A DNA stretch of 64,000 bases from Natrinema sp. SYSU A 869. GTDB taxonomy: Archaea > Halobacteriota > Halobacteria > Halobacteriales > Natrialbaceae. A program made the position numbers and the translations under genes. Positions 45,808 to 64,000 of the stretch are shown piece after piece; position 1 is the first letter of the stretch, and every line of letters starts with the position of its first letter. The stretch is from NCBI RefSeq assembly GCF_019879105.1, contig NZ_CP082248.1, positions 620,001 through 684,000 on the forward strand, read 5' to 3'. The notes beneath the pieces are model-generated. The model had not been told where the DNA came from. It searched no databases and saw only the letters and a list, made by a program, of their open reading frames with translations.

Positions 45808-47319
45808 ATGGAGGCGTTCGTGACGCAGTCACACGGATCCACCGTCGAAGTGGGGAACGGCCTGATGGCCTGGGTTGGTCGACCCAGCGCAGCGCTCTCA
45901 CTGGCCGACGATCCGCTTCCGCTCGTGCTGGCCGGGGCAGTAGTGACAATCATCGGTGCCGCAGTCGTCGTTCGAGCGCGAGCCAAGGACTCGAGTACCG
46001 GTCCCGACAACCGCTCGAGCGGGGATCCGACCGGGAGCGAAGTCAGAGAGCGGTCCGCGCAGGTCTCGTTCGAGGAACGGATCGGGGAGACGACCCTCGA
46101 TCGACTCGCACCGATTCTCCCCGACGCGGTCGGCCGCGTTCGTGATCTCGAGTCCGACGGCTGTGATGATCGCGAAACCGAGCGAGAGCGAATCAACCGC
46201 GCCGAGCGGGAACTCCGCCGCGGCCTCAAGGACGCGCTTGCAGACGGCCGCCTCGATACGGGGTTGACCGGGCCGGACGACGAACCCTACGAGATCGTGA
46301 ACCTTCCGAGTCGCTACCGCGAGTTCACCGTGCCGCCATCGGGGCGGACGGTCCACGTCGGAGAGGCCGAGAGGGCCGTTCGGGACCAACTCGAGGACGG
46401 CACCCTCCGGGACGCGGCCATTGCCGCTGCGGCAGTTGACGACCATCGCGAAAAGATTCGGCAGTACGTTCAGGATCGCGAGGAAGAGATCGTCGACCTG
46501 CGGAACGAAATCGACGCGACGCTCGTAGACGTCCGCGACCTGAGCGGCCGACTCGACGGGAAGCTGGCGGACCGTGTCGAGGAGTTCGTCCTCGACGGAC
46601 GACACGACGATGTCGACGGCGTCGCCGAGATCGAACGCGACATCTCGGACGCGATGCACTCGCTGCACCGCTGTTCGTTCGAGGACGCGCGACGGGAACT
46701 CCGAACCGCGCGCGAGGCCGCCGCCGACCTGCTCGTCACCGTCGACTTCCTCGGTGGGCTGGTCGGCACCGTCGAACACGGGAGCGGAACGGTCGAAGTG
46801 CCGACCGTCGTGTCGACGGCGCTCGTAACCGACCTCGCACCAATCATCGAACGACAGTACGATGTCGACGCGTCGGTCGACGGGACCGCAATCGCCATCA
46901 CCGAACGGAACATGCCCGGCGACGAGGACGATGTGTCGAGGATATCGGACGTGGCAACACCCGCGACCGAGCAGACGCCTGCGGGTGAGTCGACCGGCGG
47001 ATCGACGGGGACCCGGAATCACGTCGCAACCGAGTCAGTCGCCGACGAAATCCTGTTTGTCCTCCGGGAACTCGGCGGAAACGCGGACGGCGATACCGTC
47101 CAGTGCCAGACCGAACGGCTCCCAAAAGGAATCGCGCAGCCGGCCGTTCTTGAGGAACTGGCCGCGTTCTGCCGACGACAGACTGATGTCGTCGCCACCG
47201 TTGACCTCCAGGAGGGGGCACCGCCGGGCTTTCTCGAGATCGAGTTTACCGACCGGACGACGGTCAGGGGCGGTCTCGAGACGTTACGAGAGCGGTTCGT
47301 CGAGCGCCACGGCGGCTAA
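45808..47319 (+). CDS. Single-span membrane protein with long cytoplasmic coiled-coil domain
   Basis: 503 residues from the ATG at 45808; an in-frame extension to 45736 lacks coding bias. One membrane segment at about 36-56 (LPLVLAGAVVTIIGAAVVV), then basic residues, so the C-terminus is cytoplasmic. A long helical region follows (ERTEREL-type: ERINRAERELRRGLKDALADG; DREEEIVDLRNEIDATLVDVRDLSGRLDGKL). The last 100 residues (VADEILFVLRELGGNADGDTV...FLEIEFTDR) may form a winged-helix-like end domain also seen in the protein at 54339. Candidate membrane anchor for the tubulin-like filaments. No homolog recognised. Confidence 0.8.
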   Translation: MEAFVTQSHGSTVEVGNGLMAWVGRPSAALSLADDPLPLVLAGAVVTIIGAAVVVRARAKDSSTGPDNRSSGDPTGSEVRERSAQVSFEERIGETTLDRLAPILPDAVGRVRDLESDGCDDRETERERINRAERELRRGLKDALADGRLDTGLTGPDDEPYEIVNLPSRYREFTVPPSGRTVHVGEAERAVRDQLEDGTLRDAAIAAAAVDDHREKIRQYVQDREEEIVDLRNEIDATLVDVRDLSGRLDGKLADRVEEFVLDGRHDDVDGVAEIERDISDAMHSLHRCSFEDARRELRTAREAAADLLVTVDFLGGLVGTVEHGSGTVEVPTVVSTALVTDLAPIIERQYDVDASVDGTAIAITERNMPGDEDDVSRISDVATPATEQTPAGESTGGSTGTRNHVATESVADEILFVLRELGGNADGDTVQCQTERLPKGIAQPAVLEELAAFCRRQTDVVATVDLQEGAPPGFLEIEFTDRTTVRGGLETLRERFVERHGG

Positions 47320-47483
47320 GACGAGTGTAGGTGCAGCTTCGATCGCTGGTGGGTGCCGACAGACGGGTGTGCGATCGCACGTTCAGTTGGTATGTTCTAT
47401 GTAGGTATTCATGTAATAATTTAACATCTCGAAAACTGAGTCTGGTAGAGTCCAAGATCGAAATCGCTGCCGGTCCACACGTA

Positions 47484-47496
47484 ATCCTTTAGATAG
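47484..47496 (+). promoter_or_regulatory. TATA-like element before first tubulin-like gene
   Basis: TCCTTTAGATAGT lies 32-42 bases before the ATG at 47527, allowing a leader of only a few bases. The 207-base gap before it also has the palindrome GTGCGATCGCAC (47369-47380), perhaps the end signal of the previous gene. This suggests that gene 47527 has its own promoter. Confidence 0.4.
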
Positions 47497-47526
47497 TTCC
47501 GACGAAGGGATAGGACAGTACTGAGA

Positions 47527-49125
47527 ATGACGAATCTCTGTAAAATTTGTATGGCGCAGGCGGGCGAGTGGGAGCGGGCGACCCTCGTCGAACACGTCCG
47601 AGACGCACACGGCGACGAGCCGGAGTCCGTCGAACAGGTGTATCCAGACCTGCGCGAGGAGGTGTTCGCTCCGGAACCACCCGAGGACGATTCGACCGGC
47701 AACGAAACTCGATCGGGACCGGCGAAATCGACCGAGACGCTCAGCGAGGACCTGCTCGATAGCACCTATGGGAAGAAGTGGTTTCTCGTCGGCGTCGGCG
47801 GCGCGGGGAACAATATTCTCGATGCGATCTTGCTCCGTCGCGAGACGCTGGCGGAGAACAACGAGCGCCGCGCTCGGATCTGGGAGGGCGGACTCGCCGG
47901 TTACGGGCTCCTGAACACGAACGTCAGCGAACTCGAGCAGACCTACTACGCACAGGAGGAGAAGGGCTACAGCCGCAATGACCTGTTGCCGAACTGTATC
48001 ATCGGGTTCGGCCGCCACGATTATGCAGGCGCCGGCTATCGGTGGGACATCGGCAAGGAGTTGATGGAGGCCGATTTCGAGGGCGACTCCGACCCCTTCC
48101 GAGAGCGCTGGGACATGAAAATAGAACGGATTCAGGACTCGCAGGCCGTAATGTTCGTCCACAGCGTCACGAAGGGGACCGGCTGCGGTGCGACGCCGGT
48201 CGTCGCCGATAACCTCAGATCCGACGTCCTCGAGGACGACACGGTCGTCCCGAAACCGCTTTTCAGCAGCGTCGTCATTCCGTCGGAGGGTACCGAGTAC
48301 TCGGAGTTCGGCGGCCGCGCGAAGGTAAACGGCGTCGTCGGACTCGCGCGCACCTCCCGAGCGGTCGACGCGATCATCCCGTTCGATAACAACTGCCTCG
48401 AGAACGTTCAGGCGGACATCCGGCCGCAGATCGACCGGCTTGCGGAGTACAACCCGCCGCAGTATACGGAGATAAACCGACCGCTCGTCGCGTTCCTCGA
48501 GGCGTTTACCATGTCATCAGTGCCGCAGTTCCTCGATCAGGACGCGACGATGTCGATCATGGGCGACGTGTTCGATCCGGCCGACAGCTTCCGGCCGGTC
48601 GAGGACAAGTATCAGCTGAATCCCGACGTGTCGTTCACGCCGGCGGTGATCCTCGCGCCGATACTGGGGCGATCACGTGCGAGCGTGATCGATCGGTCGA
48701 AACTCGAGATTCTCGTCCGGAATGCGCTGTTTCAGAACAAACTGGCCGAGTTCGATCCGACGACCGCCTGGGGCGGGACGTTCCTCGTGTACGGTCCTCC
48801 CGAAAAGATGGACGCCGTGTCGGATTTCGTCGGCGACGGGACGCTGACGGAGATCATCTCCGGCGAGGAGTTCCTCGACGCGGGCAACGTCTCGGGAATC
48901 GAAACCGTCGACGTCCACGTCAAACAACTCGTGACGCCGGACCTCGACGACGTCCACCTCTGGGGGACGCTGTGGAATCCGGAGATGCCGTCGCTGTCGG
49001 AGATGTACGATCAGGCCCAGCGACTCAAGCAGGAGGGCAACAGCGAACAGGCCGAAAACGTCCGCGAGGAGTGGGACGCGGTCGAGGCGCTGTTTTCGGC
49101 GCTCGGTCGGGAGAACATGGCGTAA
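47527..49125 (+). CDS. Tubulin/FtsZ-superfamily GTPase 1 with N-terminal C2H2 zinc finger
   Basis: 532 residues. Residues 5-28 form a C2H2 finger (CKIC...LVEHVRDAH). An acidic linker leads to the GTPase fold: LVGVGGAGNN (87-96, first nucleotide loop) and VTKGTGCGATPVVADNL (214-230), equal to the GGGTGTG signature of FtsZ/tubulin but with Lys for the first Gly. AVDAIIPFDNNCLEN (279-293) matches the DxxIxxxN block. The T7-loop position (about 313-325, TEINRPLVAFLEA) lacks the catalytic Asp of FtsZ, so it may hydrolyse GTP poorly or need a partner. The C-terminus is longer than in FtsZ and helical. Neither FtsZ nor CetZ. Confidence 0.88.
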   Translation: MTNLCKICMAQAGEWERATLVEHVRDAHGDEPESVEQVYPDLREEVFAPEPPEDDSTGNETRSGPAKSTETLSEDLLDSTYGKKWFLVGVGGAGNNILDAILLRRETLAENNERRARIWEGGLAGYGLLNTNVSELEQTYYAQEEKGYSRNDLLPNCIIGFGRHDYAGAGYRWDIGKELMEADFEGDSDPFRERWDMKIERIQDSQAVMFVHSVTKGTGCGATPVVADNLRSDVLEDDTVVPKPLFSSVVIPSEGTEYSEFGGRAKVNGVVGLARTSRAVDAIIPFDNNCLENVQADIRPQIDRLAEYNPPQYTEINRPLVAFLEAFTMSSVPQFLDQDATMSIMGDVFDPADSFRPVEDKYQLNPDVSFTPAVILAPILGRSRASVIDRSKLEILVRNALFQNKLAEFDPTTAWGGTFLVYGPPEKMDAVSDFVGDGTLTEIISGEEFLDAGNVSGIETVDVHVKQLVTPDLDDVHLWGTLWNPEMPSLSEMYDQAQRLKQEGNSEQAENVREEWDAVEALFSALGRENMA

Positions 49126-49236
49126 TCGGCTGTTATCTCGCCGACCCGGTCGGCTCGTCGACGTATCATCGCGTGACGGAACTGGCCGTCCATCGCGTCC
49201 AGCATTCATCCATATGTGAATTATAGGGAATGAAAT

Positions 49237-49246
49237 GTAAATATTA
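49237..49246 (+). promoter_or_regulatory. TATA box for the small ORF/PH-domain gene
   Basis: TGTAAATATT is centred about 24 bases before the ATG at 49265, the usual distance for a leaderless haloarchaeal transcript that would start at the 39-residue frame. Confidence 0.5.
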
Positions 49247-49264
49247 CGGGTCTTTGTTCGACAC

Positions 49265-49384
49265 ATGCCAACGATGACGGACGACAGCTGTGGGGAGGGA
49301 GAGTTCGTAGTACTGGAGACCGGAAGAGAGACGGATCGTCACCGGTCAGACGCGACGACTACCGCTCGGCGACAGCGCCCGTAA
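49265..49384 (+). CDS. 39-residue leader frame before the PH-domain gene
   Basis: MPTMTDDSCGEGEFVVLETGR... ends at 49384, six bases before the ATG of the PH-domain gene. The TATA-to-ATG distance fits leaderless translation. The tail is Arg/Thr-rich. It may be a small real protein or a translated leader that couples translation to the next gene. Confidence 0.4.
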   Translation: MPTMTDDSCGEGEFVVLETGRETDRHRSDATTTARRQRP

Positions 49385-49390
49385 CGACCG

Positions 49391-51345
49391 ATGTCAGAAG
49401 AAGACGCCCATCAGGCGAGCACCACCGGCATCAACCCACTCGACGGGGAAGTCGTCCTCAAAACGTTCACCCGTCCTGGATCAACTGGAAGTGGCGACTG
49501 TTCGGATCGATACTGTTCCTCATGGCCGGTCTCAGCGTCGGTGGCGGTGGGAGGACCGTCATTATGGGGATCGGAATGTTGCTCTTCCTCAACGTGTACC
49601 TCGCCCGAAGGCGGAGCCGCTATATCGTCACGAACCAGCGGGTCAAAAAGAAAACCGGCTTACTGAGTACGTCGACCGGTGAGACGCGGCTGAGCAACAT
49701 CAACGGAATCTCGACCGGATCCGGTATCCTCGAAGGACTGGTCGGAAAAGGAACGGTCTCTATCACGGACGCCGCCGGTGAGACGTTTCCCATCAAAGGC
49801 GTCGGCGACTACGAAAAGCTCGCCCGGACGCTCCGCGAACGGCATCAGCAATCCATGCAACCGGGCCGCGGTCACGGGGCGGCCGCTCAGCCCGGTCCCG
49901 GTCCGGCCCAGCACCGCGGCGGTTCGGCCCCGGTGCGGCAGGCACAACAAGGGGCCGACGGCGGTCAGAACAGCTCTCAATCCGGCGACCGAGCGGCAGC
50001 CGAGTCGACCGAGGCCGCCGACAGTCCCAAGGACCGCTGTCTCGAGTGCGGCTCCCGCGTCGACGCGGGCGTGAGTTTCTGTCCGGAATGCGGGGCCGAC
50101 GATCCGTTCACGCCGTCGACGAGCGACGGGACCGACGAGACGGCGGCCGAGACCGACACCGAGCCTGCGCCCGAACGCGACACACCGACGCATCCGATCG
50201 CCTCGATCGCGGAGTCGGTCGCCAAGCGCTGCCGGCCGGACTCGAGCGCTGCGACGGAGCTGTGTCAGACGCTGTCGGCCGAGGAGACCGACGAGCGGCG
50301 GCTCGAGGACGCCCTCGAAGCGGCGGTCGATACGCTCGAGACGGCTGCCACGGTGACCGACGCCGTCGAGAGGGTCGACGATCCCACCGAACGCCGGCAG
50401 CTGGAGTCCGCGCGCCGGACGATCACCGGCGAGCGCGGCCGCCTGCCCGCCGAGATCGAACCGATCCTCGATCGGACGATCGCAGTCAGCGAGGACCTTG
50501 AGGCGTGTGAACGCGAACGCGAACAGCTCCGAGAGGCCGCCGACGCGGTCTGTCAGGCCGCGAGACGGAATACGCGCGTAAAGCTCCGAAGCGGGGACGT
50601 CACCGACCGGACGGTCGCGGTGGCCGAAGCGATCGAGGACGGCGATCTTGGCGGCGACTCGACCGAACCGATCATCCCGGCAGTCGCCGGCGAACTCGAG
50701 CGCTCCATGCAACCGGAGTCGTCCCAATCCCGAGAACTGCTCGAGACGCTGGAGAAGCCGGAGTCCGACGGCGTCGAAGCGGTGTTGCGATCGACGGTCG
50801 ATTCCCTCGATTCCTACGCGGACCTGCGGGCCACCGTCGCCGACATCGGCGAGCGCGACGTTCGGCGACGACTCGACGCCCTCGACGACGAACTTGGGCG
50901 GAAGGATGGCGACGTCTACCGACACCTCGCCGACCGCGTGCGGGAACTCGAGGCGATGCTCGAGCGCGATGGCGTCACGGACGTGCAGCTGTACGCGATC
51001 TACCAGGAGTCGACATTCTACGATCGGACGCTGTTGCCGCGGCTGTCCAGATCGCTGGGCGGCGACGGCGAGGCCGACCTCGAGCGGTCGGTCGCCGATC
51101 TCGATGATCGGATCGACGCGATCGAGCGCGAGTACATCGACGTCCGAGCCGATCACAACCACACCATTCCGCGGCACTTCCTCTCGCTGGCCGACGACCT
51201 CCGGGCGGAGGCTCAACGCGTCGACGGCGACAGCCCGATGCGTGCGGCCGGCCTCTGCTCGGCGGCCGACGAGGTGCTCGGCCACGTCGAAGCGCTCTAC
51301 GAGCGAAACGAGTACAGCGTCATGCTCCGGCGGCTCCGCGGGTAG
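49391..51345 (+). pseudogene. Bacterial-PH-domain membrane protein with zinc ribbon, apparent frameshift
   Basis: Starts MSEEDAHQASTTGINPLDGEVVLKT; near 49464 the frame must change by one base to continue HPSWINWKWRLFGSILFLMAGLSVGGGGRTVIMGIGMLLFLNVYLA, a membrane hairpin, then a bPH2/DUF304 domain (RYIVTNQRVKKKTGLLSTSTGETRLSNINGI...VSITDAAGETFPIKGV). A zinc ribbon CLECGS...CPECG (codons near 50037-50092) and a 400-residue helical domain follow. Joined length is 651 residues. The rest of the gene is fully open, so a recent one-base loss, a sequencing error or recoding are all possible. Likely membrane/lipid platform of the cluster. Confidence 0.75.
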
Positions 51346-51585
51346 GACGCTCCCAACTCGGTTCGATATTCACACATCGGTCGCACGACAGCTGTGCGAT
51401 CGGGTGTGCCTTGACTTTCAGTGGCTACTATATCTTCTGTTACTCTAGCGTCATCTAGCAGAGAATGACACGAGTTATATTCGGTTGCTTGAACGTAGAT
51501 TCTATCGGATAACACTAACAGAAACACGCGATTGCAGGGCCATCAGTTTTAAGATACGTTGCTCGAGTGGTTTGATTGACAAGAC

Positions 51586-51645
51586 ATGTCCGATCCGATA
51601 ACTACATTTGGAGTCGAACAGTACGATATTTTGATAATTGTATGA
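51586..51645 (+). CDS. 19-residue leader peptide overlapping tubulin-like gene 2
   Basis: ATG at 51586 gives MSDPITTFGVEQYDILIIV and a TGA that overlaps the ATG of the tubulin-like gene (ATGA at 51642-51645). A TATA-like TTTTAAGA at 51547-51554 lies about 32 bases upstream, so the mRNA may begin at or near this ATG. It may serve translational coupling. A chance frame is possible. Confidence 0.35.
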   Translation: MSDPITTFGVEQYDILIIV

Positions 51646-53069
51646 CGTACCTGTTCGTTGGGGCTGGACAAGCAGGGGGAGCGATCGTCGATGCGATATT
51701 CGATTACACCGACGATTCACTGCTGGGGATGTTCGACTCGGCCGACATTTCGACGCTCGGCCGGCCGCTGGTGTTCAATTCGACGATGCGGGACCTCCAG
51801 AACCTCTCGAACGTTCCAGCCGAAGACCAGTACGGAATCGCGGAGCAACACGGCCTCGTCCAGGGGACCGAACCCGGGTTCGAGGAGATGGTAACTGGCG
51901 GGTTCGGCCGGAACCCGGTCGACGCCGACGAGGTGATGGCAGAGCACGCGCCACAGATTCAGACGATCCTCGGCGAGAAATTCGACCCGTCGTTCGCGAA
52001 CGAGGCGGCGTTTGCAAACGAGACGGCGTTCGACGACGACTCGGTTGACGAGGACGCGCCGCTCGACGAGGACGGCGAGAACGATATGCCGGACGACGAG
52101 GATACGCCGCTCGACGAGGGCGATGAGGACGACGCGCCGGCCGAGACGCTCTCGGAACCGGCGGTCGAGCCGACGGGATCGGGCGTCCAGTTCGCGTTCC
52201 TGTTTCTCGGACTCGGCGGCGGAACCGGCTGCGGAATCGGCCCGCATCTCGCTCGCGAGATCAAAGCGTTCACCGACGGGCGGACAAAGGTGGTCGCGGT
52301 GGCGGTGTTGCCGAACACACAGAGCGCCGACGCGGTCGGTGGGGCCGACGACGGCGACGACGTTAGCGCCGGCCGACAGGCCTGGAACGCGCGCTATGGT
52401 CTCGATCGCCTCGAGGACGAGGTCGACGGGATCATCCTGATCGACAACCAGCGAATCTCCTATCTCGACTCGGCGGGCGGAGAGTTCGGGGAGTACAACG
52501 AGTACGTCGCCGCGTCGATCTACGATCTGGTCGCCGGACCGGTGTTGAGCGGGATCAATCCCAGTGCGGTCGAGGGTATCGATACGCCCGACATCGACGT
52601 TCGGGACATCGTCACATCGCTCTCCTTCGGCGTCGCCGGCGAGGAGACGGAACCGGGTTACGCCGCGATCGGCCGCTCGGTGACGATGACGCGATCGCTG
52701 CCGGGGTATCTGTTGCCGTTCGTCGGCAAGCGTGATATCGACAGCGCCGCGCTGTCGCGGCTGTCGGCTGCCAAGCAGTCGCTCGCGAAGGCCGACATCG
52801 GCGATTCTCAGAAGGCGATTTCACTGATCAGGGCGCCGAAATCGAACCTCGGTACCGGGAGCCACAGCATCGAGATCGGGACGGTCAAGGAGTACCTCGA
52901 GCGGAGCAGCAAGCTGAGCGAGGTGAATCTCGGAGTCGCGATGAGCGACCGGAACCTCGCGTCGGTGACGACGCTGCTGACCTACCGTCGCGACGACCTC
53001 GACCGGCTCGCGGACATCGAAGCGGCCGCCGAGGCTTACGAGGAGGAGACGGAGGAGTTGCTCGCATGA
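51642..53069 (+). CDS. Tubulin/FtsZ-superfamily GTPase 2 with acidic insert
   Basis: 475 residues from ATG 51642; the in-frame TTG at 51576 adds residues without homology to the fold. YLFVGAGQAGGAIVDAIF (3-20) is the first nucleotide loop, and FLGLGGGTGCGIGPHLA (188-204) the tubulin signature. DGIILIDNQRI (262-272) is the DxxIxxxN block. DIDVRDIVTSLSFG (317-330) resembles the FtsZ T7 loop NxDFxD, including the Asp that completes the neighbour's GTP site, so polymerisation-coupled hydrolysis is plausible. Between the loops, residues about 131-170 are a repetitive Asp/Glu insert. First gene of a run of overlapping genes; stop overlaps the next start. Confidence 0.9.
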   Translation: MTYLFVGAGQAGGAIVDAIFDYTDDSLLGMFDSADISTLGRPLVFNSTMRDLQNLSNVPAEDQYGIAEQHGLVQGTEPGFEEMVTGGFGRNPVDADEVMAEHAPQIQTILGEKFDPSFANEAAFANETAFDDDSVDEDAPLDEDGENDMPDDEDTPLDEGDEDDAPAETLSEPAVEPTGSGVQFAFLFLGLGGGTGCGIGPHLAREIKAFTDGRTKVVAVAVLPNTQSADAVGGADDGDDVSAGRQAWNARYGLDRLEDEVDGIILIDNQRISYLDSAGGEFGEYNEYVAASIYDLVAGPVLSGINPSAVEGIDTPDIDVRDIVTSLSFGVAGEETEPGYAAIGRSVTMTRSLPGYLLPFVGKRDIDSAALSRLSAAKQSLAKADIGDSQKAISLIRAPKSNLGTGSHSIEIGTVKEYLERSSKLSEVNLGVAMSDRNLASVTTLLTYRRDDLDRLADIEAAAEAYEEETEELLA

Positions 53070-53332
53070 GACGGCGACAACGGAGCGCGGTGTGCCTCCT
53101 CGCAGTCGTCGCCGTACTCGTCGTGCTCACGGCGACGGTCGCGGCCGACGGGTCCGCAGTGAAAACGACCATCGACGAGACCGAGGCAGCGGCTAACGCG
53201 ATGGCACTCGCGGATCAGACGATGCTGATCGCGGCCGGCGGAGCGCTGCTCGGAATCGGGTTCGGCGCCGCGGTCGCGAGCGGTATCACCTACTGGTACA
53301 AGAACCGGGAAATCGGAGGGCGGTTGCAATGA
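53066..53332 (+). CDS. Small secreted single-span membrane protein
   Basis: 88 residues: signal peptide (about 1-27, SAVCLLAVVAVLVVLTATVAA), a short external helix (KTTIDETEAAANAMALADQ), a membrane span (LIAAGGALLGIGFGAAVASGITYWY) and a short basic cytoplasmic end. ATG overlaps the tubulin-like stop and its stop overlaps the next ATG. Size suggests an adaptor subunit between filament and membrane. Confidence 0.8.
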   Translation: MRRRQRSAVCLLAVVAVLVVLTATVAADGSAVKTTIDETEAAANAMALADQTMLIAAGGALLGIGFGAAVASGITYWYKNREIGGRLQ

Positions 53333-54342: not shown

Positions 54343-56429
54343 ACGCGAACGCGAAGAGCGCGCTGGGAATCGGTGCCGTCGTCGTCCTGGCGGCCGCGAT
54401 CGGTGCCGGGGTGTTCGTTACGACCAGTTCCAATATCGCGGTCTGGTTCGTTATCGGCGGGATCCCGCTGCTTATCGTCAGTGGGATCGCGCTGTACGTC
54501 CGCGGCGTCGTGTCCCGCAGCGGGACGAGCGAACAACAGTACGTGAAGCAGCAGGCGCGGGCGGTCGCACAGGACTTTCAGGAGACGGTCCGGGAACGAA
54601 ACGACCTCCGGGAGGCCTACCCGGACTGGGAGTTCACCGCGGACGCGCAACTCGAGTCGATCGCGGGCGATTTCCGGGCACAGGGCGTCGCGTTCGACCT
54701 TGAGACGGGCGCGTTCGACCTCACCAAAAAGGTCGGAAACGCCGAGGTACAGGCGTTCGAGTCGATTTCGGCCGAAGTTGAGCGCCTCAACGAGGATATC
54801 GGAACAGCGTTCCGGGAGTTCGCGACCACTGAACTGTCCCACATCGAGGACGCTCTCGACCGACTCGAGGATGTCGATCTGGTTACTCGAGATGCGGTGA
54901 TCACCGGACCGGATGAAGACGCGGCCGTCCCGGCGTGTCGCGATACGGTCGACGCCGCGAGGGCGACCGCAACGGAGACGATCGAAACGGCGATCGAAAC
55001 CGTCCGCGAGATGGGGCGTGGCGATCAGCGACCCGAAGACAGCGAGGCGATCGATCGAGACCTCGAGGCGGCCGCGGACGCCGTCGGCCGAAACGAGTTC
55101 GGAGCCGCCGTCGAGTCGGTACTCGAGGCGCGGGACCGCCTCCGCGATCAGTTCTCCGGCTCGTTCGACGCGGAGCGAGAATCGGTATTGTCGCTGGTCA
55201 ACGCCGTCGAAGACGCCGGCGTGGCCGCACACGTTGACGCCGCGTACCTCGACGCGGTCGCAGACGTCGAGTCGGCCGTCACCGGCATGGACTCCGCGCT
55301 GGATCTCTCGGAGGTGAGCCACCGTCGTGCGGACCTTCGGCGGACCTGCGTCGACATGGTCGCCGGAATGGAGCGCGATCTCACGGACGAGGTCGAACCG
55401 CTTCGAACGGAGGAGCTTCCGCCCGGCTACTACACGGAGCCGGCGATCGCCGGCGAGACGTTCGTCGACGAACTCGAGAGGATCGACGACTTCGAGCGGT
55501 TCACCGAGCGGTGGCGTGAGGTCGCCGGCTCGCTGGCCGATGCCGTCGACACTGCGAGTACCAAAGCCGCCGTCGTGGAGGCCTACGACGACGTCGCCGA
55601 GATCATCGAGGCCGAACTCGAGACGTCGGGCGAGGTCACGAACGACGATCTGCCGGTACGTGACGCCGCGGAGTTCCTCGGGCTCTACTACCGGCGCAAC
55701 GAGTCGGTCGAACTCGAGCCGGACGTGCCGGTGCTCCGACGCGGCGACGTCGAGAGCCACGACCTCACCGTCGATGTCACCTACGAGCGCGGCGGATCGA
55801 AGCGGACGGCGACGCTGTCGCTGTCGGGCTCGGGCGACGACGAGACGGCGACCGTGGAGACGCGAGTCGCCGGAACAGCGACGTTCGAGGACGTGTCGGC
55901 CGATAACCACACGCTCGAGGCCGATCCCGGCGACGACGCGTTCGCACCGATCGATCGGGAGGTCCGGATCGACGGGGAGACGAGCGTCGAAATCGAGTTC
56001 ACCGAACAGAGCCTCCGCGAGCGGGTCTGTACCGTCACCGACGCGGACATGAGCGAGCACCTGTCGGAGCTCCGCCCGCGCCTCGAGGAGCTGTACGAGG
56101 ACGAGGGCCACGTATCGACGGCGATGGAGCTGCCGGTGCGATCGGCACACGCGCCCTGTCTGCTCGCCGTCTGGGCCGAGACGGACGGCTACGATGCGAC
56201 GGAGACCGCCGACGGCGATATCGTCGTCTTCGAGCACGACCAGCTCGAGCGGGAGTTGACCAACGTGGTCAGGTACAACCTCGAGCCGGGCGAGCGACTT
56301 CCCTTCGACGACCTCGAGCGGAACTTCCTGACGGCACCGGTCCCGCGGTCGGTCCTTCGGGACGCCGTCGCAGAGCTGAGCGAGGAGCACAACGTGACGA
56401 CAACCGACGACGCGATCGAGATGAAGTAA
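54339..56429 (+). CDS. Membrane-anchored 696-residue cytoplasmic coiled-coil/Ig protein
   Basis: Two N-terminal spans (LGIGAVVVLAAAIGAGVFV; IAVWFVIGGIPLLIVSGIAL), then a long cytoplasmic helical region rich in Glu/Arg/Ala (about 65-420). A beta sandwich follows (DLTVDVTYERGGSKRTATLSLSGSG...VEIEF, about 475-550), then an end domain (VVRYNLEPGERLPFDDLERNFLTAPVPRSVLRDAVAELSEEHN). The end resembles the C-terminus of the 45808 protein in length and pattern. Likely scaffold beside tubulin-like GTPase 3, which follows after three bases. The long minus-strand frame over it is a shadow. Confidence 0.8.
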   Translation: MNANAKSALGIGAVVVLAAAIGAGVFVTTSSNIAVWFVIGGIPLLIVSGIALYVRGVVSRSGTSEQQYVKQQARAVAQDFQETVRERNDLREAYPDWEFTADAQLESIAGDFRAQGVAFDLETGAFDLTKKVGNAEVQAFESISAEVERLNEDIGTAFREFATTELSHIEDALDRLEDVDLVTRDAVITGPDEDAAVPACRDTVDAARATATETIETAIETVREMGRGDQRPEDSEAIDRDLEAAADAVGRNEFGAAVESVLEARDRLRDQFSGSFDAERESVLSLVNAVEDAGVAAHVDAAYLDAVADVESAVTGMDSALDLSEVSHRRADLRRTCVDMVAGMERDLTDEVEPLRTEELPPGYYTEPAIAGETFVDELERIDDFERFTERWREVAGSLADAVDTASTKAAVVEAYDDVAEIIEAELETSGEVTNDDLPVRDAAEFLGLYYRRNESVELEPDVPVLRRGDVESHDLTVDVTYERGGSKRTATLSLSGSGDDETATVETRVAGTATFEDVSADNHTLEADPGDDAFAPIDREVRIDGETSVEIEFTEQSLRERVCTVTDADMSEHLSELRPRLEELYEDEGHVSTAMELPVRSAHAPCLLAVWAETDGYDATETADGDIVVFEHDQLERELTNVVRYNLEPGERLPFDDLERNFLTAPVPRSVLRDAVAELSEEHNVTTTDDAIEMK

Positions 56430-56432
56430 CAC

Positions 56433-57659
56433 ATGGCACAAACGGACACGTTTACGAGATGGAGCGTCATCGCCTCGGGAGAGGGTGGCGGGCGAATCGC
56501 ATCGCAGTTCTTCGACCGCACCGAGAATCCGGGCATCGACGACCGGATTCTGGTGATGAACACGAACAGAGCGGACCTGCGGAACACGATCGACCGGCTC
56601 AAAGCGAAACTGGGAGCCACGGAAGACGAAGACGTGATCGAATCCCACGCCCTCGAGTTCGGCTCCCAGCAGGGGGCCGGGAACTTCTTCCCGAACGGCG
56701 AGACCTGCGCGCGCGAGGATCTCGATCGGATCGTCAACCGAATCACCGAGTTCGGAACGACTGACGCGTTCATGCACGTCGCGACGCTGGGCGGCGGCAC
56801 CGGCAACGGGTCGATCCCCTACGTCGTCGATCAGTTCAAGGACGGACTCAGCGATTTGAACGACGACAACGCCGCCGAAGAGTGGATGGACAGCGTGATC
56901 CACGCCGCCTTCGGCGTCTGGCCCTACTACTACGAGCAGCCCCAGCGCCACTTCAACGCGGTCTGTGGTCTCTCACGACTGCTCCGGACGGACGACGACG
57001 AGCAGAACGCCGACATGGTGTTGCTCGCCTCGAACTCCCACCTCGACGACGACGAAACAGGGGCCGGCGATCAGTACGACTCGATCAACGACGCGATCAT
57101 CACCGCGGTCGACCTGATGATCGGAGCCGGCCGGGAGACCCGCAGCGTCATCGATATCAAGGACTACGTGACGATTCCCTCCCAGATGGACGCCTACCAC
57201 TTCACGCCCGCCGTCGCGACTGACCTCAACGGCTCCGTCTACGAACTCGAGTATATGCTCGATCAAGCGGCGGAGGGAACGTTCGTGCCGATGGACGTGG
57301 AGACGACGACGGCCGCCTACGCGATCGTTCGCGCGCCCGAACGCATGATCGACGACGGGGAGATCACCGAGCCGGAGGTTTACGAAGCGTTCCGCGAGTG
57401 GACCGGCAAGAACGGCATCAACGTCGCCGGACAGGCGAGTCTCACGCCGAAACGCGGGCGCGGCAGCGACGTTGACGTGCTCCTGTTGCTCGGCGGCTTC
57501 GATCTGAACCCGCTGCTCGACCACTCGTGGGACGACTTCGAAATGCTCGGCGACAGCCTCGCCGGGCAGTCCCGCGGCGGCGGTACCGACCTCACGACCG
57601 CCCAGCTCGACCGAATCGTCGATAACCTCGAGTCGTACGTCGAACGGAACGCGGAGTGA
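56433..57659 (+). CDS. Tubulin/FtsZ-superfamily GTPase 3
   Basis: 408 residues, close to FtsZ length. SVIASGEGGGRIASQFF (11-27) is the first loop, LGGGTGNGSIPYVV (119-132) the signature motif. NADMVLLASNSHL (192-204) is the DxxIxxxN block. VIDIKDYVTIPSQMD (239-253) resembles the T7 loop, with an Asp in the catalytic place. It is less like CetZ/FtsZ in the C-terminal half, which ends FDLNPLLDHSWDDFEMLGDSL. It differs strongly from GTPases 1 and 2, so the three are ancient paralogs rather than recent copies. Tight spacing with neighbours (3 and 2 bases). Confidence 0.9.
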   Translation: MAQTDTFTRWSVIASGEGGGRIASQFFDRTENPGIDDRILVMNTNRADLRNTIDRLKAKLGATEDEDVIESHALEFGSQQGAGNFFPNGETCAREDLDRIVNRITEFGTTDAFMHVATLGGGTGNGSIPYVVDQFKDGLSDLNDDNAAEEWMDSVIHAAFGVWPYYYEQPQRHFNAVCGLSRLLRTDDDEQNADMVLLASNSHLDDDETGAGDQYDSINDAIITAVDLMIGAGRETRSVIDIKDYVTIPSQMDAYHFTPAVATDLNGSVYELEYMLDQAAEGTFVPMDVETTTAAYAIVRAPERMIDDGEITEPEVYEAFREWTGKNGINVAGQASLTPKRGRGSDVDVLLLLGGFDLNPLLDHSWDDFEMLGDSLAGQSRGGGTDLTTAQLDRIVDNLESYVERNAE

Positions 57660-57661
57660 CC

Positions 57662-60622
57662 ATGACGGCACTGGCATCCATCCCCGACGATCGCTCGACC
57701 GCGAGCGGCGTACTCCTCCCACTCGTCCTCGCGGTCACAGTCGCCGGCGCACTGATCGCACCGGTGACGGCCGCATCGGCAGCGACGACGCAGGATAACA
57801 GCGGCGAAATCAGCATCGAGCGCACTAACGATTTCCTCGAGATCTCCCTCTCAGGGTTCGACGAACGACCGGACGAGGTAACGATCGAGGTCGCCGCAGC
57901 GAACGAGAGCGCGTCGACAATCGGGAACAGTAGCGACGGGCAGGCCGAGGTGGCGATCACCGAACTGGTTTCGGAGATCAATCACGTCTCGTTGAGCGAT
58001 GCGAACGTGACGGTAACGGCCGGCGACGCGTCCGAATCGGAGACCCTCGATCTCCGCACGATCGCGTTCGCCGATGCGGATGACGTGCCGGTCTGGCTCA
58101 GCGGCGGCGACGGGTCGCAGGTCATACTCCCGCTCGATCAACGCGACACGGTCGGGCTCACGGAAAGCGATTCGATCACGATCTCCGCCAACGGCGATGA
58201 TCTCTCTGCCGACGTGCGGGCGAACGGAACGCAGCTCGCGATCGACCAGTCCGCGCTCGTAGAGACGGTCGGTTCCACCGACGAAATCGCCCTCGAGGCG
58301 TCCATCGTCGACGATCGACCGACCGAACGAACCCTTCAGCCGCAACTGCGCGACGTGGCCGACCGGCCGGTGCTCTGGTACCCGCTGCTCGAGCCCGGGA
58401 CCGCGTACGGAATATCCGCCGAAGACGATCGGGAGAGGCAGTACGTGAACAGCAGCGTCGATCCCGTTCGCGCCGGCGAGATCGACCTGTCGCCCCTTTC
58501 GGGGGCAGCCGCGGTGACGGCCTCCGTATCGATGGCCGATGAGGGTACCACGGTACTCGAGAACGAAGAACTCACGCTCGAGCGACCGGCCCCGCTCTCC
58601 GCGACGGTCATGGACGACGGTGCGGCGGTATCGTTCGACCAGAGTGTCGACGGCCTCGGTGTCTCCAGCGTTATCGTCAATTCGAGTGTAGGTGGGGTAA
58701 CGCAGTACGCACTCGGAGACGGGACGATGATCGAGAACAGACGGCTCGCGCTCTCGAACGCAACAGTGACCGCGACAGATAAACTCGTGTTGGCGACCGA
58801 CGCGGGGATTGCTCGAGTGACGCTCAATGCCGCCGAATCCGGATCGGACAGAGACAATCCTAAGGGAATGATTTCAACGCTACTCGACGTAGGTATAGTT
58901 GGCGCACCGCTTCTGATACCAGGTCTCCTAGGACTCGTCGTTGGATACGGTTCGTATTGGTCTCGTAATGAACGGACGAAGAAACGACTCGGCATCAGCG
59001 CGATCATTGCTACCGGACTCGCATCGGCGACCGCAATCGGACTTGTTTTCCTCCTCCCTGGAGAGCCGCCATCGATAGCACCGTCATTCTTTGGCGCGGG
59101 TATCGATATCTCGTTCCTCGAGGTGGCGTTGTGGCCCCATGGTTTCGCCGGATCCGGTGTCCTCCTCGGAGCGGTGCTGGCACCGGTACTCTACTACCGA
59201 CTCAGCTACCCGATCGGCGTCGATCGGAGCGCCGGGTTCACAGTCGACGTGACCGTCACTGACGGGAATCAGCCACTGACCGGCCGAACGAAAATCGGAT
59301 ACAGACGAGTGGACAATCCCGATGCCGAGGCAAACGAGACGGCGATCTCGGGCGGCGTGGGGCGGCTCACCGTTCCGGAACGTGGAACGTGGAACCTCGC
59401 CGCTAAACATAAATCGCATGAATCAGACGTCGTCAAAGTTAGTCGGCGAAAGACGAGCGTCACACTCACCATAGTGTTCCCGACGACGGTGACGGTTACC
59501 GACGGCACTGACAGCGAGCCGATCCCTGGCGCAGCAATCACGCGCACGGACAGCGATACCACTGAAACGACGGGCGTGAACGGTACTGCGACGCTCGAGC
59601 CGGGGACTCCGGGCTCGAGCATCGAGATAGAGATCACACACGAGAAGTACGCAACTCGAACGGAAACGATTAATTTCTCCCAGAACGGGGACCGGACGAT
59701 CGAACTCGCGCCCCGAACCGGACGCGCGCGGCTGGTCTCTCGCGTCGACGGCGTTCAGACACCGTCGATGCCGATTCGACTCAGTTCGCGAGAGAAGGCG
59801 TTACAGGATCGGTACGGAACCATTCACATGACGACCGACCGTGATGCAGTGGCCACTCGCGAGGGCCTCCTGATCGGCCAGTACCGCGCCGAGATCGATC
59901 CACCGGACGGTCGTGGCGAATTGTTCGACGGCGGGAAGCCAGTCCTGACTGTCCGCGAAGACCGGTCGACGAAGGTCGGCGTCGACGCCCACTTCACGTG
60001 GTCGCTGTCGTCGTCCCAACGGGATCGGATCGACCGCCTCCGGCGGAAGGTCCGAACGCTGTCCGACCATAGCGGACGGGACACGACCATCCCGCAGTAC
60101 TACGGCTCGGTCGTCGTCGCAATACTCGAGACGGTCGAGTCCCTGCCGGAGGACGGCCACCACTTCGCGCACAGCGAGGCGACGCCCGACGCCGTCGCGG
60201 ACGCGCTGCTTGCCGCCGCCGCGAAGGCGATCGACGCGATCAACGACGCGATGACGACCAAGCGAAACGTCGACCTCTTCGCCGCCTGTGCGGACATGCC
60301 CGATCCCGGCGTCGACTGGGACGGAGACTGCGACCTCGAGACGGTCCTCGAGTGGCTCGAGTCCGATGCGATAACGCAGCGAAACGAACTCAAGGACCGG
60401 TACGAGACCGTCACCGGGCAGGTCGAAACCGAGCGGAAGTCGGTCTCGGAGGCGGCTCCGGCAGAGGAGATGTTACGACACGCCTGGGACCTCGGCAGCG
60501 ACGCCGGTCGCGGTCCGGAGGCGATCGTCACCATCTACGTCTCCCTGCTGTTGCTTGAGGCGGTCGCGGACGTGTTCGAGCACGACGCCCTGTGCGATAG
60601 ACTCTCACGGACGGTGTTCTAA
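57662..60622 (+). CDS. Large membrane protein: external beta domains, membrane spans, internal Ig-like and helical domains
   Basis: 986 residues from ATG 57662 (GTG 57656 overlaps the previous stop). Signal peptide (VLLPLVLAVTVAGALIAPVTAAS), about 360 external residues of beta repeats, then three spans (ISTLLDVGIVGAPLLIPGLLGLVVG; AIIATGLASATAIGLVFLL; GVLLGAVLAPVLYYRLSYP). Internal part: carboxypeptidase-regulatory/Ig-like units (VTVTDGNQPLTGRTKIGYRR; VTVTDGTDSEPIPGAAITR...) and a helical C-terminus (about 790-986). The topology links an outside beta structure to a cytoplasmic adaptor next to GTPase 3. Confidence 0.8.
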   Translation: MTALASIPDDRSTASGVLLPLVLAVTVAGALIAPVTAASAATTQDNSGEISIERTNDFLEISLSGFDERPDEVTIEVAAANESASTIGNSSDGQAEVAITELVSEINHVSLSDANVTVTAGDASESETLDLRTIAFADADDVPVWLSGGDGSQVILPLDQRDTVGLTESDSITISANGDDLSADVRANGTQLAIDQSALVETVGSTDEIALEASIVDDRPTERTLQPQLRDVADRPVLWYPLLEPGTAYGISAEDDRERQYVNSSVDPVRAGEIDLSPLSGAAAVTASVSMADEGTTVLENEELTLERPAPLSATVMDDGAAVSFDQSVDGLGVSSVIVNSSVGGVTQYALGDGTMIENRRLALSNATVTATDKLVLATDAGIARVTLNAAESGSDRDNPKGMISTLLDVGIVGAPLLIPGLLGLVVGYGSYWSRNERTKKRLGISAIIATGLASATAIGLVFLLPGEPPSIAPSFFGAGIDISFLEVALWPHGFAGSGVLLGAVLAPVLYYRLSYPIGVDRSAGFTVDVTVTDGNQPLTGRTKIGYRRVDNPDAEANETAISGGVGRLTVPERGTWNLAAKHKSHESDVVKVSRRKTSVTLTIVFPTTVTVTDGTDSEPIPGAAITRTDSDTTETTGVNGTATLEPGTPGSSIEIEITHEKYATRTETINFSQNGDRTIELAPRTGRARLVSRVDGVQTPSMPIRLSSREKALQDRYGTIHMTTDRDAVATREGLLIGQYRAEIDPPDGRGELFDGGKPVLTVREDRSTKVGVDAHFTWSLSSSQRDRIDRLRRKVRTLSDHSGRDTTIPQYYGSVVVAILETVESLPEDGHHFAHSEATPDAVADALLAAAAKAIDAINDAMTTKRNVDLFAACADMPDPGVDWDGDCDLETVLEWLESDAITQRNELKDRYETVTGQVETERKSVSEAAPAEEMLRHAWDLGSDAGRGPEAIVTIYVSLLLLEAVADVFEHDALCDRLSRTVF

Positions 60623-60623
60623 C

Positions 60624-61619
60624 ATGCGCACACACGCTACTCGACGAGCGGTACTACTGACGGCGATACTCGTCGTCGCGACGATCGGGACGGTACCGCT
60701 CTTCGGCGGGACCGTCGCCGCACAGGAGGAGACCGCAAACGACTACTTCGAAACGTTCCGCGCGATGGAGGGAGTCGAAGCCTACGAGGAGTACGACGAG
60801 CTGGAGACCGTCCGGACGTTCGCCGTGTCCCAGACGCAGGTAACGGGCGAGCTCTCCGCCGCCGAGCGCGCGGAGTTCGAGGCGGTCCTCGGGACCCTGC
60901 AGTCGTTCGATCACGCCTACGCTCGCGCCGACGCGGGCGAGTACGAAGCGAGTCTCTCGGCCGCCGAAAACGTGAGCGCCCACATCGACGAGCTCGAGGG
61001 GTACGACCAGACGCAGGCGACGCTCGCCACCCTCGCACTGACGCGGTTCTACGAGCGACTCGGCGACGGTCTCTACGAGGAGGTCGACGCGACGAATCGG
61101 ACACCCGTTCGGATCGAGCGTCTCGAGATGACCGCAACGACCTACGAGCGGGCGGACATGCCGGAGGAGGCCACCCAGTTCAGGGTGCAGGCGGAACAGC
61201 TGAACGCCGAGTACGAACGCGATCGCGCGACCATCGATACCGCACGGAACGCCACTGCCACCTTCATCGAGGACTGTCCCGACTGCACGGACGTTCAGGC
61301 CGCCGTCAGCGCGAACGGCCTCGAGACGTTCGCAGCGTATCAAGACGCACAGACGACTCATAGCCGGGTTCGAGACGTGCAGGGCCACGCGGCCGATCAC
61401 GGGCTCGCCGAGCGCGAGGAGGAACTGGCCGCGATGGGCGACGAGGTTGCCGAAACGCGGACGACGCTCGCGATCGCCTCGAGCGCGGTTCTGATCGGCT
61501 ACGGCGTCGTCGTCGGGCTGGTCGGGACACTGCTCGTCGGGCGACTCTTCGCCTGGCGACGCACGTACGAGGCCGCTCGAGTCGGCTCGGTCGTGACGGT
61601 GGGTGAGAGCGATGTCTAA
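60624..61619 (+). CDS. Secreted helical protein with C-terminal membrane anchor
   Basis: 331 residues from ATG 60624. Signal peptide ending VAAQEE, then all-helical external domain with TPR-like pattern (DYFETFRAMEGVEAYEEYDEL; YERLGDGLYEEVDATNRT), one Cys pair (DCPDCTD), and a final span (LAIASSAVLIGYGVVVGLVGTLLVG) with a short basic tail. It overlaps the next gene by 8 bases. A probable partner of the large beta protein that follows. Confidence 0.78.
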   Translation: MRTHATRRAVLLTAILVVATIGTVPLFGGTVAAQEETANDYFETFRAMEGVEAYEEYDELETVRTFAVSQTQVTGELSAAERAEFEAVLGTLQSFDHAYARADAGEYEASLSAAENVSAHIDELEGYDQTQATLATLALTRFYERLGDGLYEEVDATNRTPVRIERLEMTATTYERADMPEEATQFRVQAEQLNAEYERDRATIDTARNATATFIEDCPDCTDVQAAVSANGLETFAAYQDAQTTHSRVRDVQGHAADHGLAEREEELAAMGDEVAETRTTLAIASSAVLIGYGVVVGLVGTLLVGRLFAWRRTYEAARVGSVVTVGESDV

Positions 61620-63861
61620 GCGAGCGCTGCTCCTCGCGGTCGTCCTCGCCGTCGGTCTAACGGTGGCTGTCGTGCCGGGGGCGGTCGCACAGAGTGGCGT
61701 CACGGTCGACGCCAGTGGCGGGACGGTCAATCTGGGTACCGAGACGGAGACGCGTTCGGTCGAGATCACTAACGACAGAAACGAGTCCGTCTCCGTCGAC
61801 GTTTCGTCGCTGTCTGGAATCAGCGTCGATCCGGATCAACGGACCGTTCCCGCCGGAACGACGGAAACGATCACCCTCGAAATCGACGGAGACGACGACG
61901 CAGGCGGTGGGACAGTCACCGTGAGCGCCGGTGGGAGCGAGGACAGCTTCAGAGTCGAACGCCTCGCGATCGCCGGCTTCGAGGACGAACCGCTTGACGT
62001 CGGCGACGTGCTCGTCGGCGAGAGCGCATCCGGAGACGCGAGCATCGAGGAACTCACCGGCGAGGAAACCCTCAGTAGGGTCGATGCAACCGTCGTCAGT
62101 ACCGATCCGGACGCGGATCTCGGAGTCAGCGCGAGCGGTACGGCGATGAACTGGAACGTCTACGTCGACAGCGGCGTCGAGCAGCATGAGACGCTCTCGT
62201 GGGAGGTCGAACTCGTCCCGAACGGGAACGACGAGGCGGCTCGAACCGTCGAGGTCGAGAGCCGTGTCATCCACCCCGCCGAGTTCGGTGCGGTCTCCCT
62301 CGAGGACGACCTGACGTTCGACGAGCCGCGGAGCTCGACGTCGACGATCACGAAGACGGTCGACCTCGAGGTCGAGAACGCCGGCGACCTCAAACTCGAA
62401 GTCGATCGAGTGACGGCGTCCGCCTCGACCCGTGGACTCGACGTGTCGGTCGCGGACCAACTCGATACGATTGACGGCCAGTCGACCGAGACGATCGAAT
62501 TGGCGGTAACGGCGAACACCGGACTCAGCGAAGGGGAGTACGACGTCTCGGGGTCCATCAGCGCTGCGGACTACAGTATCAGTGACGCGAGCTACGACGG
62601 GACCGTCGAAATCGAACACGGCACGCGACTAGATATCTCCAGTCGGATCGACATCGGTGATGTGCCGATCGGCGAGCCCGAACGACGGTCGACGACCGTC
62701 GGCGAGGCGCTTGGCTACAACGACGTCAATTCCCTCGAGATAACGCGCGAAGAGGGACCGGAGAGCTGGCTGACGATCGAAGAGGCTCCGTCGGAACTCG
62801 CAGCTGGCAGCTCGCAGGCAGTCGTCTTCCAGACGGCCTTCGACACCGACGCGGAGCTGGGAACCAGCTACGAGTGGACGTACACCGTCACCGGTGACGG
62901 CGTCGAGGAACAGACCGTGACCGTCGTCGCGTCACCGGTGCCGCTCGATCTCGATCCGATTCGACGGGACGTCTCCGCGTACGACGGAACGGTCGCCGAC
63001 CAAACCGTCGCGATGATCGACACGATGGACGAACGGATGCGAAGCAATGACGTTTCCAGCGAGGACGTCACGGTCATCCTGTCCTACGGCAGCGCCTCGT
63101 CGCTATATCTCGAGTCGATGACGGCCGCACGCGAGCACCAATCGGCCGGCGAGTACGAGGCGGCCCAGACGGAAATCGTTCAGGCCGCGGCCGCCTACAA
63201 CACGATGACTCTCTACGGGGACGAACTCGAGGGCGAGGCCTTCCGGGACGACAGTTCGGAAGTAACGTCCGCTGCCGAGAGCGACCTGGCAGCCGTGATC
63301 AGCGACCAGCAAGCGCACTACGAGGAGCGCCTCGAGTCCGGTTCTATCTCGCTCGTGGCGGAAGCGACGGTTCAGCGACAGCTCGCTCGGATCGTCTCGC
63401 TTCAGGGCGACGACGAGCGGGCGGCAGCGCTCGAGTCGAACGCGAGCTCGGCGTTCGAGAACTACGCCGAGGCCGTCTCGGACGGGGAACGGGCCCGCCA
63501 GCGCGCTGAGGAGACGTGGACGGCGATGGAGTCCGAGCAGTTCGTCACGGTCGCCGGCCAGCCGCTACTCCTGAACCCGGCGGAGTACGACACGTACACC
63601 GAACGCGTCGATTTCATGAACGCCGCCTACGAGAACGCGACCGCGACGTTCGAGGAGGCCGGTGAAACGGGCCGCGCCGAAGCGGTCGCGACGAAGCACG
63701 AGGAACGGACGAGCGCGCTCCAGGTGACGCAGTGGTCGCTGTTCGGCGCGATCGCCGTGTACGCGATGCTCGTCATCGGTATCGTCCTCCGGACCGCACG
63801 CGGGATGTACTGGTATCTCCGGGACGCGCGTGAGTCGGTCAGCGGTGACTTCCTCGTGTGA
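61612..63861 (+). CDS. Secreted tandem-beta-domain protein with helical stalk and C-terminal anchor
   Basis: 749 residues from ATG 61612. Signal peptide (1-26, LLLAVVLAVGLTVAVVPGAVAQ), three to four Ig-like/ASPM-type domains (VNLGTETETRSVEITNDRNESVSVDVSSLSGISVDPDQRTVPAGTT pattern repeated near 335 and 390), a helical stalk (about 480-700), then a span (WSLFGAIAVYAMLVIGIVL) and a short cytoplasmic end. Last gene of the overlapping series; the surface-exposed end of the system. Confidence 0.8.
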   Translation: MSKRALLLAVVLAVGLTVAVVPGAVAQSGVTVDASGGTVNLGTETETRSVEITNDRNESVSVDVSSLSGISVDPDQRTVPAGTTETITLEIDGDDDAGGGTVTVSAGGSEDSFRVERLAIAGFEDEPLDVGDVLVGESASGDASIEELTGEETLSRVDATVVSTDPDADLGVSASGTAMNWNVYVDSGVEQHETLSWEVELVPNGNDEAARTVEVESRVIHPAEFGAVSLEDDLTFDEPRSSTSTITKTVDLEVENAGDLKLEVDRVTASASTRGLDVSVADQLDTIDGQSTETIELAVTANTGLSEGEYDVSGSISAADYSISDASYDGTVEIEHGTRLDISSRIDIGDVPIGEPERRSTTVGEALGYNDVNSLEITREEGPESWLTIEEAPSELAAGSSQAVVFQTAFDTDAELGTSYEWTYTVTGDGVEEQTVTVVASPVPLDLDPIRRDVSAYDGTVADQTVAMIDTMDERMRSNDVSSEDVTVILSYGSASSLYLESMTAAREHQSAGEYEAAQTEIVQAAAAYNTMTLYGDELEGEAFRDDSSEVTSAAESDLAAVISDQQAHYEERLESGSISLVAEATVQRQLARIVSLQGDDERAAALESNASSAFENYAEAVSDGERARQRAEETWTAMESEQFVTVAGQPLLLNPAEYDTYTERVDFMNAAYENATATFEEAGETGRAEAVATKHEERTSALQVTQWSLFGAIAVYAMLVIGIVLRTARGMYWYLRDARESVSGDFLV

Positions 63862-64000
63862 GTCGGTTCCAAGGGCGGTTCTCTCCCCACGAGACGGAAC
63901 AGGTAGATAGGGGTCAGAAAAAACTACTTTTCACTCGAGCCGGAACGGCGTCGACAGCGACGACAGCACGTTCGGATCAGTGGACGCGTCCTCGACTCGT
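63862..64000. other. Window end, no gene resolved
   Basis: After the last cluster gene no start is seen in the remaining 139 bases. A convergent gene may end near 63920-64000 on the minus strand, but it is cut by the window. Confidence 0.3.

Follow-up and report, generated by a model that had tools for sequence, protein, structure and literature searches.

A 64,000-nucleotide window from the haloarchaeon Natrinema sp. SYSU A 869, i.e., positions 620001-684000 of the 881 kb contig C2 of a 5.67 Mb genome, carries ten forward-strand genes, P0001 to P0010, between window positions 45808 and 63861. Three of them encode divergent GTPases of the tubulin/FtsZ superfamily (TSF), and the others encode predicted membrane or secreted proteins. 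Comparison with other genomes, 194 Halobacteria in all with the window's own included, indicated the ten genes to be the tubulin and membrane half of a larger conserved unit, whose other half lies just beyond the window's end.

Searching the whole genome with the Pfam hidden Markov model for Tubulin (PF00091; curated cut-off 33 bits) gave nine matches above cut-off, the main contig accounting for six, two FtsZ among them, and the window for three: P0002 (47527..49125; 44.2 bits), P0004 (51642..53069; 47.2 bits) and P0007 (56433..57659; 37.2 bits), designated families T1, T2 and T3, respectively. This agrees with the original prediction, which had picked out these three genes by their motifs and had called them unlike FtsZ, CetZ and each other. 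Indeed, the three proteins score 22-29 bits with the FtsZ equivalog model TIGR00065 (cut-off 295 bits), which rules out FtsZ proper, and in a tree they form three clades apart from FtsZ and CetZ (support 100/100, 100/99 and 100/100), which rules out membership in CetZ, even if the few outgroups and long branches leave the deep order unsure. Profile-profile comparison related each family to FtsZ/CetZ with 98-99% probability and the families to one another with 97-98%, and it is on these comparisons that the tubulin fold predicted for the three proteins rests. Among solved structures, the T2 and T3 profiles scored highest with 3zid, 4b45 and 4b46 (for P0004, 3zid and 4b46 are the best relatives), all of which we take to be CetZ-type structures. 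An AlphaFold2 model of P0002 from an alignment of 10 sequences reached a predicted local distance difference test (pLDDT) score of 38, probably owing to the shallow alignment.

The superfamily motifs are conserved in alignments of 20-24 orthologs per family and give no sign of a dead GTPase in any of the three, as far as motifs can tell. In P0002, the glycine loop (the T1 loop of the fold) reads GVGGAGNN (47791..47814; G89, G91, G92, A93, G94 and N95 invariant), the T4 loop HSVTKGTGCG (48160..48189; H212-G221 invariant) and the T7 position DPAD (48574..48585; D350 and D353 invariant), a DxxD that aligns with the DIKD of family T3 in profile comparison. A first reading, from the conserved 'LVAFLEAFTMSS' block, had P0002 lacking T7; profile comparison placed T7 at DPAD, ~25 residues further on, and two divergent P0002 copies in other genomes (G081 and G031) carry LDVRD/LDVPD, in support of this placement. 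The N-terminus of P0002 additionally bears a zinc-finger-like CxxC..H..H motif (C5, C8, H23 and H28), invariant in 20 orthologs and also present in two very divergent relatives. P0004, with 22 orthologs and a variable acidic insert, has the glycine loop GAGQAG, an invariant T4 loop GGGTGCG (52215..52235; G192-G198) and DVRD at the T7 position (52596..52607; D319 and D322 invariant). P0007, the most widely conserved of the three (orthologs up to 96% identity), has GEGG, an invariant or nearly invariant T4 loop GGGTGNG (56790..56810) and DIKD at T7 (57153..57164; D241 and D244 nearly invariant). One other genome holds a lone T3 copy that has lost T4 and T7 (L071:12477-13667 on G048:C8), a degenerate or regulatory paralog ~12 kb from a CDC48-like AAA gene (L180:8302-10563).

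Hydropathy bore out the membrane or secreted character originally ascribed to the partner proteins, with signal peptides or transmembrane (TM) segments in P0005, P0006, P0008, P0009 and P0010 and a single TM in P0001. P0001 (45808..47319), the proximal gene of the locus with colinear orthologs in 21/21 full loci, combines its one predicted TM near the N-terminus with a cytoplasmic coiled coil, and a start at 45808 is plausible. P0003 (49385..51345) consists of an N-terminal TM, a bPH_2 domain, a zinc ribbon and a long coiled coil; of the two domains named for it in the original prediction, bPH_2 stands (PF03703, 32.7 bits; cut-off 22), the zinc ribbon falling just under its cut-off (23.7 bits; cut-off 25). 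As the N-terminus is frameshifted in the assembly, spanning two frames at 49385-49468 relative to the closest ortholog (N. versiforme), the start at 49522 is not native; the native one is probably at about 49391, and the split is either a sequencing indel or real damage. P0005 (53329..54342) shows a signal peptide, a coiled coil and two C-terminal TMs by hydropathy, and has orthologs at other loci. P0008 (57656..60622), by hydropathy and orthologs, starts with a signal peptide and N-terminal beta domains, followed by central TMs, a CarboxypepD_reg-like domain (PF13620/PF13715, E about 1e-4, under cut-off) and a C-terminal helical part. P0009 (60624..61619; start placed by ortholog alignment) has a signal peptide, a helical ectodomain and a C-terminal TM, and P0010 (61603..63861) a signal peptide, immunoglobulin (Ig) domains of the HYDIN/ASH type (PF15780, 26.3 bits, under the cut-off of 27), a helical domain and a C-terminal TM. 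From P0005 to P0010, consecutive genes overlap or abut within a few bases at most, as had been noticed for the second half of the cluster.

P0006 (54339..56429) was modeled with AlphaFold2 at a mean pLDDT of 84, with low confidence for its two N-terminal TMs. A helical region of ~370 residues leads to a beta domain (residues 472-557) and two alpha/beta modules (571-696) that look like winged helices by secondary structure. The beta domain is transthyretin/CarbopepD-like according to VIA-align (Z about 10, root-mean-square deviation 2.2-2.5 over 81-82 residues, the alignment being confined to this domain), and Foldseek returned zero matches at E <= 0.001 with the P0006 model. Because the two TMs sit at the very N-terminus and none follow elsewhere, the body of the protein is likely cytoplasmic. 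P0006 is also the best candidate for a tubulin anchor, as it lies directly upstream of P0007 and is kept with T3 in every multi-gene variant described below. Just upstream of the ten genes lie a TFB (TFIIB) paralog (43375-44457) and a TRAM-domain gene (44569-45003), neither conserved at other loci.

The cluster had been taken to end at 63861, and this boundary did not hold. By comparing 20-60 kb contexts among loci, we found that the system continues into a convergent operon whose near end is 69 bases past P0010. The operon lies almost entirely outside the window, which includes the 3' end of its nearest gene, E1 (63931..64000, minus strand), and runs on for ~7.6 kb (L072:1-7589; window coordinate = L072 + 64000). 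In order of transcription it encodes E5 (372 aa), the helical E4 (345-350 aa), the small helical E3 (~240 aa), the AAA ATPase E2 and E1 (~1000 aa), an adaptin-like protein with beta-propeller and Ig parts. E2 has a single AAA domain, most like that of CDC48/VCP and present in 17/17 members; a CDC48_2 N-domain is detected weakly in 6/17 (best E 7e-5), and there is no MIT domain among the matches listed for the 17. An E1 ortholog (G037) matches PQQ_2 with 37 bits, above the cut-off of 27.6, and Alpha_adaptinC2 under cut-off (E 0.057); no TM was predicted in E1.

Several peculiarities mark the operon in the window genome. E1 is interrupted by a change of frame (L072:2186-2189), E5 is broken near its N-terminus (L072:7323-7371), and E3 and E2 form one open frame (L072:3027-5324). 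Together with the frameshift in P0003, this amounts to several indels in ~25 kb, reflecting either assembly error or a decaying locus. E4 (L072:5326-6363) shares 38% identity with its counterpart in a close relative (G193) and 81% with that of a member of another family (G038), T3 being 95% identical to that of G193; the E3-E4 cassette thus seems to have been swapped. Just past the operon, within 5 kb of E5, are a resolvase-family gene (L072:7812-8567) and a tyrosine-integrase gene (L072:11965-12675).

The ten genes were found in the same order and orientation in 21 of the 194 genomes, spread over several families, which answers the genome survey for their co-occurrence that the original prediction had suggested; in this count, tblastn missed P0005 at several loci because of its divergence, and some stretches ended before P0010. 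Long P0007 relatives, well above the CetZ background, occur in 23/194. One genome (G014), which fits Haloquadratum walsbyi C23 (PMC3119063), holds this gene set, the three TSF genes included, in a locus of 47.6% GC. In the window genome the convergent operon adjoins the ten-gene cluster, as it does at nearly all other loci read far enough; in G162 it is partly on another contig. The P0002, E4 and E5 families have strong matches in exactly the same 21/194 genomes. Beyond those, there are divergent P0002 copies in G031 and G081 and one stray weak E4 match in G166; extra weak E4 fragments occur in genomes already holding the unit. The probability that two independent sets of 21 genomes are identical by chance is 1/C(194,21), about 1e-28, a figure that genome kinship makes larger. 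Second, distant E4-like matches were seen where the unit was already present (G124:C1:323528-324256, G139:C1:14759-15370 and G147:C5:151430-152068).

The two halves have also diverged together. Pairwise identity matrices of T1, T2, T3, P0006, E2, E4 and E5 correlate with that of FtsZ1 at 0.17-0.50 and with one another, given FtsZ1 held constant, at partial Spearman coefficients of 0.59-0.87. In G038, from another family, T3 is 84% identical to that of the window and 57% to the T3 of a fellow member of its family, G063, with FtsZ1 at 86% and 88%, respectively. Given the occurrence in the same 21 genomes and the correlated divergence after FtsZ1 correction, the two halves have been inherited, and apparently transferred, as one unit.

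Reduced variants suggest how the unit is built. Two genomes (G042 and G048) have only P0004-P0010 plus E1 and lack P0001, and two others have only a divergent P0001-P0003 set alongside an E1-like or P0008-like gene; E4, E5 and full-length E2 are found in none of the four. T1 therefore travels with a P0001-P0003 module, and T2 and T3 with a P0004-P0010 module. Of the latter two genomes, G081 (L109:5007-13621) combines the P0001-P0003 module and its zinc-finger-like T1 protein with an E1-like gene, and G031 (L110:4441-16042) combines the same with a 1058-aa gene that appears propeller-like by eye and a P0008-like gene.

A relative was detected outside Halobacteria, in a metagenome-assembled genome of the same phylum (G436; 1/58 genomes of its class). 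Its 20 kb contig (G436:C155; L129, L130) encodes homologs of P0006 (257 bits), P0007 (279 bits, the one tubulin-like gene), P0008 (twice), P0009 (77 bits) and P0010 (268 bits); a propeller gene and a CDC48-like gene with two AAA domains lie on it as well. For the winged-helix-like, helical and propeller genes of this genome, homology to E5, E4 and E1 could not be shown, and they compare by position only. A VAT_N-like stretch was noticed by eye on a separate coiled-coil protein (L129:3675-4772). In our reading, an AAA ATPase and membrane coiled-coil proteins with a single tubulin formed the core, and haloarchaea gained the other two tubulin families; transfer the other way is possible.

The published system that fits this gene set is the Halo_adaptin ESCRT-like system (ESCRT, endosomal sorting complex required for transport) of Makarova et al. 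2024 (PMC10936438), and to this extent the unit is already known. Its text describes a Vps4-like single-AAA ATPase with a VAT/CDC48-type N-domain and no MIT, an ESCRT-III/PspA-like protein encoded upstream of it, a winged-helix protein, an adaptin-like protein with propeller and Ig domains, one CetZ-related protein, IG proteins and a membrane protein, with H. walsbyi among the species named. The likeness extends to the single AAA domain of E2, its CDC48-type N-domain in 6/17 members and the lack of MIT among listed matches, the propeller and Ig parts of E1, and the TSF, Ig and membrane proteins. E4 is a helical protein in the ESCRT-III/PspA place, upstream of the ATPase in adjacent operons, and E5, at the place of the published winged-helix protein, is taken as that protein by position. 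In contrast to the single CetZ-related protein in the published text, we find three distinct TSF families. Relative to the searchable literature text, these families, their colinearity, exclusive co-occurrence and co-divergence, the reduced versions and the relative outside Halobacteria are new. The published text has no co-occurrence test, partial-module variants or relative outside Halobacteria; the supplementary tables may hold part of this and list some of the genes. In the published ATPase tree, Halo_adaptin groups with the Meth_adaptin ESCRT (PMC10936438), likewise with adaptin-like Ig proteins, but the loci described there have SPFH, GOLD and ProX proteins, with no TSF gene mentioned.

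The pointer to FtsZ-like families with membrane partners was a good lead to a different system. FtsZl1 (Makarova and Koonin 2010; PMC2875224) resembles the present genes as a divergent TSF family in operons with membrane proteins and with predicted membrane remodelling. However, its fused coiled coil, lack of an identifiable T6-H7 and vWA, kinase, GTPase and OmpA neighbours are absent from this locus; the intact T7 DxxD and the lack of any vWA or kinase Pfam match among the ten genes or the tested E genes rule out membership.

We consider it probable that the ten genes are the tubulin and membrane half of a 15-gene Halo_adaptin unit acting as a membrane-remodelling machine for budding or sorting. 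Among the functions first proposed, vesicle formation coincides with the vesicle or membrane-remodelling role (budding or sorting) predicted for Halo_adaptin (PMC10936438); shape, surface and defence have no specific support. We infer polymerisation, topology, energy coupling and output as follows. T1-T3 would assemble on the cytoplasmic face of the membrane, either singly or as a mixed polymer, and P0001, P0003 and P0006, coiled-coil proteins with membrane anchors, would hold them there. P0005, P0008, P0009 and P0010 might pass force, or a signal for cargo, on to Ig-type ectodomains on the outer side, and the AAA ATPase E2, together with E4 and E5, could remodel or disassemble the coat, yielding a bud, a vesicle or a sorted membrane patch. 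The multi-filament machine with parts on both membrane faces that had been envisaged gains from this in part, namely from a conserved unit with several TSF and several membrane proteins, colinear in 21 genomes.

Several findings count against so close a union. E4 has no detectable similarity to Pfam Snf7/PspA or, by hhalign, to six haloarchaeal PspA sequences, and E5 no significant winged-helix match. What carries the ESCRT label is thus the ATPase, gene position and the published proposal, which is also the source for E4 as a PspA/ESCRT-III-like protein; homology to ESCRT-III could not be confirmed here. The N-domain of E2, taken alone, has no solved relative in the PDB. Three genomes, G017 (operon ~260 kb off), G061 and G098, have the two halves apart, with both still present, and in G042 and G048 T2, T3 and their partners occur without E4/E5, so the tubulin module can stand alone. 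Moreover, genomes with the unit also have FtsZ1 and FtsZ2, which makes it accessory. As a separate observation, in both G017 and G061 the relocated operon has a CetZ gene at a distance of ~3 kb (L111:3676-4857, L112:3678-4859).

Of three other accounts, the least unlikely, though still unlikely, is that the unit is an accessory cytoskeleton serving cell shape or motility in the manner of CetZ1/CetZ2, the AAA operon being mainly a chaperone or disassembly factor. The three families share with CetZ their place among the TSF GTPases of Halobacteria, the best solved matches of T2 and T3 are of CetZ type, and haloarchaeal CetZ work concerns shape and motility (PMC9856176). Yet T1, T2 and T3 each form a fully supported clade outside CetZ and FtsZ, they lie within a large conserved membrane-protein operon, no such secreted or Ig partner set is described for CetZ in that work, and presence of the unit is patchy across families. 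The several predicted ectodomains among the ten proteins, with their Ig/HYDIN or CarboxypepD-like folds, and the propeller/Ig protein E1 could instead speak for a machine assembling or exporting an envelope structure, such as an S-layer patch, adhesin or appendage, with the ESCRT-like genes clearing or recycling it. We regard this as improbable: the conserved genes include no pilin, sortase, glycosyltransferase or S-layer family match, and E1 has no predicted TM.

Patchiness across families, the resolvase and integrase genes near E5 in the window genome and the loose tie of divergence to FtsZ1 would also suit an anti-virus or conflict island moving as mobile cargo. This seems very improbable given the long conserved gene order and the lack of any nuclease- or toxin-like family match. 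The PADLOC hits were weak (E 0.0085 or worse) and confined to coiled-coil stretches, none of weight for a known defence system, and there is no relative among viral contigs, so that a viral origin was rejected as well.

We thus return to the membrane-remodelling unit. A bolder form of it, which we find doubtful, is a single membrane-budding machine for which three distinct TSF GTPases, possibly joined in one heteromeric filament, an ESCRT/Vps4-like AAA module and the transmembrane Ig partners are all obligate. It would have grown by accretion around a core older than Halobacteria or external to them, comprising one tubulin, a CDC48-like ATPase and homologs of P0006 and P0008-P0010. If true, tubulin-type and ESCRT-type mechanics would be physically coupled in a prokaryote.

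Eukaryotic tubulin and ESCRT filaments act on membranes both separately and together; here, tubulin-type and ESCRT-type genes are joined in one inherited archaeal unit. Since its hosts also carry FtsZ1 and FtsZ2, the unit probably serves something other than ordinary division. In place of one CetZ-like protein, the parts list now contains three GTPase families, all with intact motifs, complemented by a natural series of reduced versions, and as each half could in principle be removed from a cultured haloarchaeon, the published idea of a haloarchaeal sorting or vesicle machine becomes directly testable.

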